21,796 bases of DNA. It comes from a virus. Each line of letters opens with the position of its first letter. The first letter of the stretch is position 1. Under the pieces are notes generated by a model that had not been told where the DNA came from, made no database searches, and was given only the letters and a program-made list of their open reading frames with translations. The stretch is taken from positions 1-21,796 of IMG/VR virus record IMGVR_UViG_3300036944_000510. One strand, given 5' to 3'. The position numbers and the translations under genes were made by a program. This document shows, piece by piece, positions 8,609 through 11,838 of the stretch.

Positions 8609-10489
8609 ATGGCAAAGAAAGCTGCATCACCGATATTGCCGCGCAACATCGAAGATCCTACGGGAGTCGATAAGTTAGAGCGTGGTGCCATTAACCAGTT
8701 TGAAAAAAGACTGAAAAACATTGGCAGGCGATATGCGGATCTTGTTGAGCGAATTCCTAGCCAGCCAGTCGTTAATAAGAAATACCTGTACGAACTGGAT
8801 AGTTTAATCCTTCGCATCATCTTGGATGAAGGTGACGCTCTGATTGACGATGAGTTGATTGGTCGTGCAGAGAACGGATGGTTCTTTGAAACTTACGTAT
8901 CGACGGCCTATCAACGTGGAACTGGTCAGGAATTCTCTAATCTCTCTGCTCAATCTAAAACGTATCGGTCAGAAAACGAATCGCTAACGCAGGTCATTAG
9001 ACGTGAGCCTTATCGACGTCGAGTCGCAATGCTTCAGGCTCGTGTCTTTGAAGAGATGAAAAGCCTTACCGCAAAAGTAAAAGCGGATATGGCAAGGGTT
9101 CTGACTGATGGCATTGCCAGAGGACTCAATCCTCGTGATGTTGCTAGATCGTTAGTCACTCAAGCCAAGTTAGAGCAAGGTCGTGCTAACCGAATAGCAA
9201 GAACTGAGATACCAACTGCGTTACGTCGCGCTCGATGGGATGAAACCGAAGATGCAGAGGCGCGATACGGTTTCAAAACCATGCAGATGCACATGTCTGC
9301 GCTATCTCCAACAACGAGAACGTGGCACGCAAAAAGGCATGCGAAGTTATTCACGTTGGAGCAGGTCAGAGAGTGGTTTGCTACTGGAGCCAACTCAATT
9401 AACTGTTATCTGCCAGGAACGAGAGTCCAAGGCAGATTTTTGGCTGGTTCAAAAGCTGAGTACAGGGGGCCGGTCATCAAGATAGTGACTGCTAGTGGAA
9501 GGAATCTTACCGTCACCCCTAATCACCCCATAATGACAAGTAGGGGTTTGGTTTCGGCGGCAGAAATCAACAAAGGCGATTACGCGATCTCTCACGGCGT
9601 TGATGTTGAAGATTCTGTTGGGATAACTGACCTGTATTATCAAGATGTTGAATCCAGAATCGAGGATGTATTTACTTCTCTCTCTGAGATCGGTCATTCT
9701 TTCTTTGCTAGGGTGAGCGCTATAGACTTCCACGGCGATGCTGAATTCATGGATAAAGATATCGCAGTTGTAATGTCCGATAGGGCGCTGACCTTCACAA
9801 GAGATTCCAGAACGCTCAAGAGCTTGGATTATGTCAGCCTCAAACATACCAACTCTGCAGTTTCTCATGGCTTTGGATCTTCTGACTTTAACTTCATCAC
9901 TGTCAGCGCTTCCTCGCCTTGCAATTTGAGCGTCTTTTGCCCGGTTTTTCCTAAAATTGGCTCCGAGCTTTTGGTTGCTGAGAGTTGCTGCTTCGGACAT
10001 TGTTCGGCATTTAAAACCGTTGGATTTCAAAAACCTGTTTATTGTGATTCTGGAAAACCCAATATCCATGCTGATTTGTTGGATGGTTTCTCCACTCATA
10101 TGTCTAAGGTAGATGTCTTCTGCGGTGAAAAAGTCAGATATGAGCCTCATGCTCCTTATTCCATGCTTTCTTGCGTAGTTCATGACTGTAATTCTGGCAA
10201 TCCCGAGTTTTTTAGCAATATCGCTAGGGTCGGTTCCGGACTTCAATTCCATGACGAGATTATCGACATCGTTGTTTTTGAGTATTTTGGTCAAGTTTAC
10301 GATCTCCAAGAGGTTTCAGGTTTAATGGTTGCAAATGGAATAATAGCAAGTAATTGCAAATGTTCAAATGTAACAGTCCTAGTTGATAAAGATGGGAATC
10401 CGCTCAACGAAACGATCATTGAACGAGCCGAGAAAATGTTCAAGAAGTCGAAGTTCGCAACTAATCAAAAATGTTCATGCTGCCACTGA
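8609..10489 (+). CDS. Mu gpF/SPP1 gp7-like minor head protein, interrupted by an intein
   Basis: The precursor is 626 residues. The N-extein (1-265) is a Mu F/SPP1 gp7-type head morphogenesis protein: a helical N-terminal part, then I-A-R-T-E-I-P-T-A-L-R-R-A-R (about 197-210), H-A-K-R-H-A-K-L-F, and F-A-T-G-A-N-S-I-N. The C-extein (583-626) begins C-K-C-S-N-V and holds the end of the domain plus a Cys-rich tail (C-S-C-C-H). Removing residues 266-582 joins S-I-N to C-K-C-S, restoring the conserved N-C-x-C motif of the family, so the insertion sits at its most conserved site. The spliced protein would be 309 residues, normal for the family. It is made with portal and capsid proteins and acts in prohead assembly. 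Unspliced protein is probably inactive, so the phage depends on splicing. Confidence 0.88.
   Translation: MAKKAASPILPRNIEDPTGVDKLERGAINQFEKRLKNIGRRYADLVERIPSQPVVNKKYLYELDSLILRIILDEGDALIDDELIGRAENGWFFETYVSTAYQRGTGQEFSNLSAQSKTYRSENESLTQVIRREPYRRRVAMLQARVFEEMKSLTAKVKADMARVLTDGIARGLNPRDVARSLVTQAKLEQGRANRIARTEIPTALRRARWDETEDAEARYGFKTMQMHMSALSPTTRTWHAKRHAKLFTLEQVREWFATGANSINCYLPGTRVQGRFLAGSKAEYRGPVIKIVTASGRNLTVTPNHPIMTSRGLVSAAEINKGDYAISHGVDVEDSVGITDLYYQDVESRIEDVFTSLSEIGHSFFARVSAIDFHGDAEFMDKDIAVVMSDRALTFTRDSRTLKSLDYVSLKHTNSAVSHGFGSSDFNFITVSASSPCNLSVFCPVFPKIGSELLVAESCCFGHCSAFKTVGFQKPVYCDSGKPNIHADLLDGFSTHMSKVDVFCGEKVRYEPHAPYSMLSCVVHDCNSGNPEFFSNIARVGSGLQFHDEIIDIVVFEYFGQVYDLQEVSGLMVANGIIASNCKCSNVTVLVDKDGNPLNETIIERAEKMFKKSKFATNQKCSCCH
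9404..10354 (+). mobile_element. Intein of 317 residues in the head protein
   Basis: The intein starts at Cys1 (TGT 9404) and ends at Asn317 (AAT 10352-10354); the next residue is Cys. Block A: C-Y-L-P-G-T-R-V. Block B: N-L-T-V-T-P-N-H-P with Thr38 and His41 (T-x-x-H). Block F: F-E-Y-F-G-Q-V-Y-D-L-Q-E-V-S-G. Block G: A-N-G-I-I-A-S-N followed by Cys+1. All nucleophiles for standard class 1 splicing are present, but the penultimate residue is Ser316 where His is usual. Residues about 65-287 form the linker between splicing halves. In the sense frame this carries no recognisable endonuclease; instead the opposite strand of codons 16-302 encodes one. Inteins are selfish protein introns, spread by homing. 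Confidence 0.9.
9449..10309 (-). CDS. Putative homing endonuclease encoded antisense inside the intein
   Basis: A 286-codon minus-strand frame, nested in the intein with 45 bases of intein outside it at each end. Two similar helix-turn-helix units occur at residues about 24-51 (I-A-K-K-L-G-I-A-R-I-T-V) and 72-99 (I-S-M-D-I-G-F-S-R-I-T-I). A Vsr/PD-(D/E)XK-like nuclease domain follows at about 155-250: F-E-A-D-I (Glu157), Y-N-C-D-I-F-I (Asp183), I-A-V-E-V-Y-S-A-H-P (Glu194, His199), then R-S-K-Y-I-L-D-S-G-F-N-I-L-I-I-Q-V. DNA-binding repeats plus a small nuclease is a homing endonuclease layout. The frame opens at TTG 10309; TTG 10294, 9 bases after a GGAG, has the better ribosome site, and ATG 10252 is possible. 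A promoter candidate lies upstream at 10340-10367. Expression and cutting are inferred. Confidence 0.8.
   Translation of the reverse strand: MEIVNLTKILKNNDVDNLVMELKSGTDPSDIAKKLGIARITVMNYARKHGIRSMRLISDFFTAEDIYLRHMSGETIQQISMDIGFSRITINRFLKSNGFKCRTMSEAATLSNQKLGANFRKNRAKDAQIARRGSADSDEVKVRRSKAMRNCRVGMFEADIIQALERSGISCEGQRPIGHYNCDIFIHEFSIAVEVYSAHPSKERMTDLRERSKYILDSGFNILIIQVSYPNRIFNINAVRDRVIAFVDFCRRNQTPTCHYGVIRGDGKIPSTSSHYLDDRPPVLSF
10340..10367 (-). promoter_or_regulatory. Promoter candidate for the antisense endonuclease gene
   Basis: Read on the minus strand: TTGAAC (10367-10362), 16 bases, then TATTAT (10345-10340) preceded by TGC, an extended -10. TATTAT matches the sigma-70 -10 consensus at 5 of 6 positions and TTGAAC matches the -35 at 4 of 6. 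The expected start near 10333 would give a leader of about 25-40 bases. The -10 lies in the codons for the last intein residues and the -35 in the first C-extein codons, so the promoter spans the insertion junction. Confidence 0.55.
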
Positions 10490-10506
10490 TGCAGTTAGGG
10501 GATGAA

Positions 10507-11838
10507 ATGAAAAAATCAAAAGTTTCACTTGTCGTTAACTCATCACTCGCGGTGAATCGTGAGTCTTGCATCCAAGTGAACGTTACTACTCGCGTTAACA
10601 ATCAATCGATTCGACGCGAAACATACAACGGCCGTGAGCATTGGGTATTGCCTAGTTACACGCTACCAGCAAACGTGATTATGAACGGTGGTTTGTACAC
10701 CGCTGAGCAGATAGATAAGCACTATGAAGGTCTGGAAGGTACTTTAGCTCCGCTAGGCCATCCTACTTTGAACGGTGCATTTATCTCTGCGTTTAGTGCT
10801 GAAGGTATTAACCAAGGCCACGTTGGGGCATGGAACCGCAACGTTAAGAAATCTGGTAACCGTGTCTATGTGGAAAAATGGGTAGATATCGAGAAAGCCA
10901 AAGAGTCACCAAAAGGCAATGAGCTCATTGAGCGTGTCGAAGCTATCGAACGTGGTGACGATGTTCCTCCTATTCATACAAGTATCGCGGTTTTTCTTGA
11001 AGAGCTAGAGCCAACCGAAGAACAGCGAAACATGGGCGCGAATTGGGTGGCTGACATCAAAGCCGTTGACCATGATGCCATTCTGCTAAATGAAGTTGGC
11101 GCAGCTACACCGGAACAAGGCGTTGGTTTGATGGTTAACGCTGACCTAGCAAAGCCTATGCAGATGCTAAAAGTTAACTCTGGCGTTCTTGTGGGCGAAA
11201 GCTTCCGCGAGTTAGAACGCCGATTAGAGAAAGCCGCCAAAGATAAGTTTGCACCGGGTAACGATGAATATGCGTGGGTGGCAGACTTTACCAGTTCTCA
11301 GGCGATCGTCATTACCAACGGCGGTAAGGCAAAAGTATACGGATACAAATCTGAAAGCGGAAAAATTGTATTTGACGATGATGGTACTGATGTCCAGAGA
11401 ACTGAGTCATGGACAGCGATTATCGCAAACAAAGCAAAGAATTTATTCAACCTGCAGAAACAACCTGCAGCAAACAAACAGGAGGGCGACATGCCTTTAA
11501 CACCAGAAGAGAAAAAAGAACTCGTAGGCGAGGTTAGTCAGGCTGTCGCTGCCAATATGCAAGAAGCCTTAAAACCGATTACTGAACAGTTCACTACTTT
11601 CCAAGCAAACACAGAAGAGCAGTTCAAAAAGCTTACTGCTAACCACGATGCAGATGAAGCGCGCAAGCGTGAAGCTGTTTCAAAACAGTTCGGTGAAATC
11701 GTTGCTAACTCACTGCAAGGTGATGCTCTTGATGAAATGTTCAAGAAGTGTGGCTCTGCTGCGCCGATTGGTACCAACTCTGCTACTGAGCAGGCTGAAA
11801 CGGGTGCGCCAAAAGCGGACGAATATTTCCCTCAATAA
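10507..11838 (+). CDS. Prohead protease (DUF2213-like) with C-terminal scaffold
   Basis: A 443-residue protein from ATG 10507, with AGGGG at 10497-10501; the frame extends to 10471 without a good site. The N-terminal half resembles the DUF2213 proteins that precede capsid genes in phages: L-P-S-Y-T-L-P-A-N-V-I-M-N-G-G, then P-L-G-H-P-T-L-N-G (His85) and I-H-T-S-I-A-V (Ser159). His85 and Ser159 are candidates for a U35-like serine protease pair. The last 115 residues form an acidic/lysine-rich coiled coil (E-E-K-K-E-L-V-G-E-V-S-Q) like a scaffold. An in-frame start at 11491 behind AGGAGG would make this part separately. Expected roles: directing prohead assembly, then cleaving scaffold and head proteins. 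The C-terminal E-Y-F-P-Q leads into the decoration gene. Confidence 0.75.
   Translation: MKKSKVSLVVNSSLAVNRESCIQVNVTTRVNNQSIRRETYNGREHWVLPSYTLPANVIMNGGLYTAEQIDKHYEGLEGTLAPLGHPTLNGAFISAFSAEGINQGHVGAWNRNVKKSGNRVYVEKWVDIEKAKESPKGNELIERVEAIERGDDVPPIHTSIAVFLEELEPTEEQRNMGANWVADIKAVDHDAILLNEVGAATPEQGVGLMVNADLAKPMQMLKVNSGVLVGESFRELERRLEKAAKDKFAPGNDEYAWVADFTSSQAIVITNGGKAKVYGYKSESGKIVFDDDGTDVQRTESWTAIIANKAKNLFNLQKQPAANKQEGDMPLTPEEKKELVGEVSQAVAANMQEALKPITEQFTTFQANTEEQFKKLTANHDADEARKREAVSKQFGEIVANSLQGDALDEMFKKCGSAAPIGTNSATEQAETGAPKADEYFPQ
11448..11470 (+). repeat. Ten-base direct repeat in the protease-scaffold linker
   Basis: CAACCTGCAG occurs at 11448-11457 and 11461-11470, separated by AAA. It encodes the linker L-Q-K-Q-P-A just before the internal scaffold start at 11491. 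It may be a slippage duplication that lengthened the linker. Confidence 0.6.
11491..11838 (+). CDS. Scaffold protein from an internal in-frame start (Nu3-like)
   Basis: ATG 11491 is in frame with the protease gene and is preceded by AGGAGGG at 11480-11486, one of the strongest ribosome sites in the window. Translation from it gives a 115-residue protein starting M-P-L-T-P-E-E-K-K-E: acidic, alanine- and glutamine-rich, mostly coiled coil, with a small C-terminal domain. This copies the lambda C/Nu3 design, in which a scaffold is produced in excess from a start inside the protease gene, and the protease carries the same segment as a prohead-targeting tail. Seen: the site and frame. Inferred: separate expression. 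Confidence 0.68.
   Translation: MPLTPEEKKELVGEVSQAVAANMQEALKPITEQFTTFQANTEEQFKKLTANHDADEARKREAVSKQFGEIVANSLQGDALDEMFKKCGSAAPIGTNSATEQAETGAPKADEYFPQ

Follow-up and report, generated by a model that had tools for sequence, protein, structure and literature searches.

Fractured genes, reportedly described by Dassa et al. in 2009, contain split inteins with a free-standing gene for a Vsr-like (EDxHD) endonuclease between the two halves. In canonical mobile inteins, endonuclease and intein are translated as one fused polypeptide (PMC3943268). The ShiLan type is a same-strand, out-of-frame HNH gene in a phage methylase without an intein (PMC11855218), and antisense homing endonuclease genes are found in nuclear group I introns (PMC9548176).

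The locus described here lies in a window of 21,796 nucleotides, the whole stretch of viral DNA that was analysed (IMG/VR record IMGVR_UViG_3300036944_000510, positions 1 to 21,796). It very probably represents a mobile intein that interrupts the MuF-like minor head protein of a phage, with the homing endonuclease encoded by a separate antisense gene that fills nearly the whole intein. Like the canonical mobile inteins with an in-frame endonuclease domain (PI-SceI type) it combines a HINT splicing domain, a single conserved insertion site and a homing-type nuclease, but the nuclease is not in frame with the intein polypeptide; the opposite strand instead carries it as an independent gene that overlaps the splicing blocks. 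With the fractured genes it shares the phage setting and a Vsr-like homing endonuclease that is tied to the intein and not translated within it, whereas the intein here is contiguous and acts in cis, and the endonuclease overlaps it in antisense rather than lying between two separate genes. The ShiLan-type hidden endonuclease is similar in that its frame overlaps an insertion that is kept open in the host frame, but its combination of a same-strand, out-of-frame HNH gene with no detectable splicing domain does not describe the window, where the gene is antisense and Vsr-like and the intein intact. The antisense genes of group I introns are likewise homing genes opposite a self-splicing element that need a promoter of their own (PMC9548176), but an intron need not stay open as protein, whereas here both strands must code. 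I-Bth0305I (EDxHD, PDB 3r3p) has the same nuclease fold and is the best match in sequence-profile and Foldseek searches, but is located in a group I intron, and in the family described here the His of EDxHD is not invariant. The locus probably belongs to a class of mobile inteins that is widespread and had not been described before, in which the splicing domain and the homing endonuclease are encoded by overlapping antiparallel genes. Nearly the whole element would then be double-coding, down to the promoter, ribosome-binding site and start codon of the antisense gene, which lie in the splicing blocks. In the papers searched in full text, no antisense endonuclease in an intein was found; a 2025 preprint on actinophage inteins with "non-canonical architecture" (Gosselin et al., 10.1101/2025.01.02.630785) may overlap, and priority is uncertain.

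The head protein is encoded by a single uninterrupted plus-strand ORF of 626 codons (8609-10489), not by two genes with an endonuclease between them, and as a whole it matches phrog_758 with an E-value of 1.6e-113. The N-extein (8609-9403) also matches PF04233 (5.7e-9) and is followed by a contiguous intein of 317 codons from Cys1 to Asn317 (9404-10354), inserted just before Cys+1 of a conserved N|CKC motif, and then by the C-extein (10355-10489), which begins with Cys+1 and has uninterrupted homologues in Vibrio phages. The intein scores 24.9 bits with TIGR01445, over its cut-off, and 1.9e-7 with Pfam Intein_splicing (PF14890), which is under the gathering cut-off. Blocks A and B make up the N-terminal splicing region (9404-9601), with Cys1 at 9404-9406, Thr38 at 9515-9517 and His41 at 9524-9526; blocks F and G make up the C-terminal region (10244-10354), which ends with Asn317 (10352-10354). 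The residue set for cis-splicing is thus complete, with a nucleophile at position 1, the block B TxxH, a C-terminal Asn and Cys as the nucleophile at +1, all as given in the preliminary description. C1, G22, T38, H41, G48 and N317 are unvarying across the 54 inteins compared. The penultimate residue of block G is Ser rather than His, Ser being the most frequent state in the family. In the AlphaFold model the ends are confident (codons 1-66 and about 281-317), with pLDDT of at least 92 in both terminal regions (93-98 at residues 1-60 and 92-97 in the C-terminal region), and the best Foldseek matches are RecA and other solved inteins (probability 1.00), in agreement with a HINT fold. Residues 147-264 are disordered (pLDDT about 30), and the sense-frame middle matched no nuclease family in Pfam, NCBIfam or PHROGs; on these two grounds an in-frame sense nuclease was rejected. 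Weak matches of the same region to Shiga toxin A in NCBIfam and the PDB (E 0.01-0.05) were set aside as chance. Residues 80-130 (9641-9793, plus strand) are modelled with a pLDDT of 65-89 and contain a conserved DFHGD...VDIV motif whose exact reverse is the nuclease motif YNxDF...VAVEV. Because free-standing homologues of the minus-strand protein retain the nuclease motif, the sense motif is read here as a shadow of the minus-strand active site, although it may also have a minor role in the sense protein. As a caution, sense-strand conservation of the kind shown by DFHGD and VDIV can reflect a nuclease active site encoded on the opposite strand.

Opposite the intein, a minus-strand frame is open from 10309 to 9449, with its codons exactly facing those of the intein (position 2 facing 2, and 1 facing 3). 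It had been described as 286 codons long, and the frame is present; its start is more likely the TTG at 10294-10292, because relatives have ATG at precisely that position, which gives a gene of 281 codons plus stop (9449-10294). An in-frame upstream TTG at 10309-10307 is a possible alternative. Homologues share 66% (Vibrio phage H2), 48% and 45% identity, among others, and a minus-strand coding pattern extends over intein codons 61-290. The AlphaFold model of the protein (mean pLDDT 91.5) shows a first helix-turn-helix (HTH) at residues 7-43 (10166-10276), which is missing in shorter relatives, a second at residues 58-91 (10022-10123) and a Vsr/EDxHD-like PD-(D/E)XK nuclease domain at residues 148-247 (9554-9853). 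Used alone, the protein gave weak Pfam scores for HTH families and for the nucleases MTES_1575 and DUF559, and phmmer found no relevant match in the PDB. Its 66 relatives matched HTH_7 in 37 cases (best 2e-13), MTES_1575 in 37 (best 1e-9) and DUF559 in 17, and profile searches of the PDB did give matches, namely the phage homing endonuclease I-Bth0305I (1.8e-6) and 3hrl (2.6e-6 and 5e-8), as well as the archaeal tandem-HTH protein 2lvs, which the family profile reaches at 1.9e-8 over both HTHs. The top Foldseek match is again 3r3p, with a probability of 1.00 but an E-value of 0.01. VIA-align gave Z-scores of 11.5 for Vsr over 114 residues, 10.1 for 3r3p, 10.0 for 3hrl and, for the first HTH, 8.7 (rmsd 1.0) for the GcrA DNA-binding domain, from a comparison list without other homing nuclease families, whose absence among the matches carries no evidence. 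These searches bear out the earlier reading of two HTH repeats and a nuclease domain. Of the four active-site residues proposed with it, E157, D183 and E194 (E152, D178 and E189 in 281-residue numbering; 9839-9841, 9761-9763 and 9728-9730) are kept in 65, 66 and 65 of the 66 relatives, and Y175 and N176 are also invariant or nearly so. Of the EDxHD residues, E and D are invariant in the family, and the His (H199, the fourth of the proposed residues) is found only in the clade of the window.

The TTG start in place of ATG and the shortened nuclease frames of some relatives (L212, L224, REQ3), which the homing-cycle model predicts, would fit a decaying relic, that is, an intein that persists with a dead nuclease because splicing is needed. 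This is very unlikely for the window, where the frame is full-length, all three catalytic-type acidic residues are present, the fold is confident and, relative to phage H2, the minus strand is conserved more than the sense strand.

The layout is not a single oddity but that of a widespread family with at least 75 non-redundant loci. Searches with tblastn detected it in Vibrio phage H2, Cronobacter phage ES2 and in Pseudomonas, Idiomarinaceae, Salmonella, Gordonia and Rhodococcus phages. A profile of the nuclease core found 227 relatives in viral contigs; in each of the best 80, the codon-aligned frame of the other strand is open across the matched core. Nearly all of the 75 non-redundant loci show blocks A, B, F and G on the strand opposite the nuclease, and 64 have a clear Cys1...Asn|Cys. 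The N-exteins (n=58) match Phage_Mu_F in 46 cases and Phage_min_cap2 in three, and the usual insertion site is (N/R/Q)|C(R/K)(C/S). When inteins were selected by the sense N-terminal splicing block only, 80/80 carried the antisense gene in the same phase, by this test full-length in 70 and partial in 10, several of the latter being cut by contig ends. Scanning genome contigs for the pattern opposite block B returned one locus. In a search of 398 bacterial genomes, most hits of the family profile were generic nucleases of the DUF559 type, and the two full-length matches (G001, G220) are both antisense to inteins. In the intein-bearing records inspected, annotation gives the head protein alone and misses the antisense gene.

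Variants of the layout were also observed. The insertion sites of L092, L119/L123 and L141 differ from the MuF N|CRC (for example ECDL|CRPWEG and HYS|CGAAAT), and the element has therefore reached other positions or hosts. Antisense frames are shortened, with the HTH part lost or the frame broken, in L015/L224, L027 (Rhodococcus phage REQ3) and L212, as expected for the decay stage of the homing cycle. In the Acinetobacter phages BUCT629 and IME285 (L033:3767-4660 and L026:455-1348) a free-standing endonuclease homologue is convergent with, and overlaps the end of, an intein-free MuF-like head gene; it has 12 antisense-stop codons in the opposite frame and is possibly an ancestral or derived non-intein form. 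On the plasmid NZ_LN890657.1 of Candidatus Promineifilum breve, a gene annotated as encoding a phage minor head protein likewise covers an endonuclease relative with 29% identity (26722-27564), and the layout may thus occur in a Chloroflexi phage-plasmid too.

An empty allele exists at the exact insertion site, since the MuF genes of Vibrio phages NF, Seahorse and phiV208 read through IN|CKC uninterrupted. The intein-bearing MuF of H2 and the intein-free MuF of NF are 97% identical in amino acids and 90% in nucleotides. Between the window and H2 the inteins are 75% identical in nucleotides and the exteins 62%, a difference that could stem from slower evolution of double-coded DNA and is by itself no proof of transfer. 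It is conceivable that the antisense gene is real but encodes no homing enzyme, being a DNA-binding regulator or a Vsr-like repair nuclease that lives in the intein: the HTH units resemble those of regulators and transposases, and the fold is also that of Vsr. Such a role is very unlikely in view of the strict tie to inteins (75/75 and 80/80), the conserved nuclease residues E152, D178 and E189, the similarity to I-Bth0305I and the presence/absence polymorphism at one site, and a homing endonuclease is preferred.

Double coding is apparent from the open frames. Judging from the codon usage of the window itself, about 16 TTA, CTA or TCA codons (antisense stops) are expected in the overlap, and the only one found is the stop of the minus frame. 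Across loci, where expectations were taken from the extein codon usage of each locus, the expected number is 815 for the intein strand and 590 for the endonuclease strand, versus 0 observed on either. The opposite codon-aligned frame is stop-free across the entire nuclease gene in 75/75 non-redundant loci, whereas nuclease relatives outside inteins have opposite-frame stops within the domain in 22/28 cases despite high GC. Substitutions follow the same division. When the window is compared with H2, sense positions 1/2/3 differ 93/37/59 times in the intein middle versus 77/42/129 times over 200 head-protein codons. Summed over 22 disjoint pairs, the differences in the endonuclease core at endonuclease codon positions 1/2/3 are 1557/999/2186 (position 1 vs 3, binomial p 8e-25; pooled p-values in this and the expression-signal tests are optimistic and indicative, since related loci are not fully independent), with 1870 amino-acid changes in the endonuclease frame vs 2529 in the intein frame. 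The end of the endonuclease that overlaps block B (425/168/394) is constrained on both strands. In 10-codon bins over 23 disjoint pairs, all bins from 61 to 290 are endonuclease-like or even, and the nine terminal bins (codons 1-60 and 291-317) are all intein-like; the two switches, near codon 61 and at codon 291, coincide with the end of the N-terminal and the start of the C-terminal splicing region.

These patterns support selection on the splicing domain and the nuclease, each in its own frame. Its recurrence in many other phages marks the layout as a conserved design rather than an accidental open frame. That the minus ORF is a mere by-product of codon bias in a conserved intein, its conservation mirroring the sense protein, can be dismissed as extremely improbable: codon-opposite frames are prone to shadow ORFs in GC-rich DNA, and conserved motifs of the sense protein, DFHGD and TPNHP among them, exactly face motifs conserved in the minus-strand protein, but the codon-position tests and independent homology speak against it, as in the middle of the intein the minus protein is conserved better than the sense, matches independent Pfam, PDB and fold families, stays open in genomes of 35-45% GC and has free-standing homologues. 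The earlier claim that splicing and nuclease functions share the same DNA on opposite strands thus holds in 75/75 loci and in the 80/80 chosen on the sense strand alone, and checking the relatives for minus frames broken at random beside intact sense frames did not refute it. The gene had been placed within the intein; its antisense orientation stands, but it is more than an insertion between the splicing blocks, since it overlaps the blocks themselves.

The C-terminal blocks of the intein also contain candidate expression signals for the minus strand, namely a start codon, a Shine-Dalgarno (SD)-like sequence and often a sigma-70-like promoter, above codon-shuffle expectation. The start codon (TTG in the window, mostly ATG in relatives) faces the His of the block F motif GHVY(D/N)L, whose codon is CAT in 51 cases vs CAC in one, compared with 174:219 in exteins (p 1e-15). 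The Leu codon of the same motif is CTC in 41/48, which places GAG at the SD position. The window has an SD-like GGAG (10304-10307, minus strand) 9 nt ahead of the TTG, and SD-like sites occur in 20/63 members of the family vs 3.1 expected. Further upstream, a promoter-like TTGAAC-16-TATTAT with an extended TG (10340-10367, minus strand) points into the endonuclease gene; it is the sole sigma-70-like match in 9300-11300 and by itself is without significance (codon-shuffle P 0.10). Promoter-like sites with a score of at least 10 lie over blocks F-G on the minus strand in 26/63 loci vs 5.7 in protein-preserving codon shuffles, with 0 in the N-extein and one on the sense strand as controls, and several of the family sites read TTGACA-18-TATAAT. 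Independent expression from the minus strand is therefore supported by the conserved start codon, the SD-like sequence and the promoter-like sites.

It is proposed that plus-strand translation of the head protein runs on through the intein, and that the N- and C-terminal splicing regions form a HINT domain that would excise the intein, the middle (about codons 66-280) being a tolerated linker in this frame. The minus-strand promoter, ribosome-binding site and start codon opposite the last intein blocks would drive transcription and translation of the small HTH-HTH-nuclease protein. In co-infected cells, or in a lysogen that is superinfected, this protein is predicted to bind MuF genes that lack the intein and to cut them at the conserved N|C(K/R)C codons; repair of the break would then copy the intein along with its endonuclease as a single unit. 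An antisense gene of its own would be a new answer to how an intein endonuclease is expressed, uncoupled from head-protein synthesis and from splicing. The 75 or more phage loci are a large natural set of long, fully antiparallel overlapping genes with known folds for both products, a rare combination that allows selection on each strand to be measured directly. Elsewhere in the window, a plus-strand ORF of 147 aa (1330-1773) has the CxxC...H-DH pattern typical of HNH endonucleases and is a possible second mobile endonuclease of the same phage.
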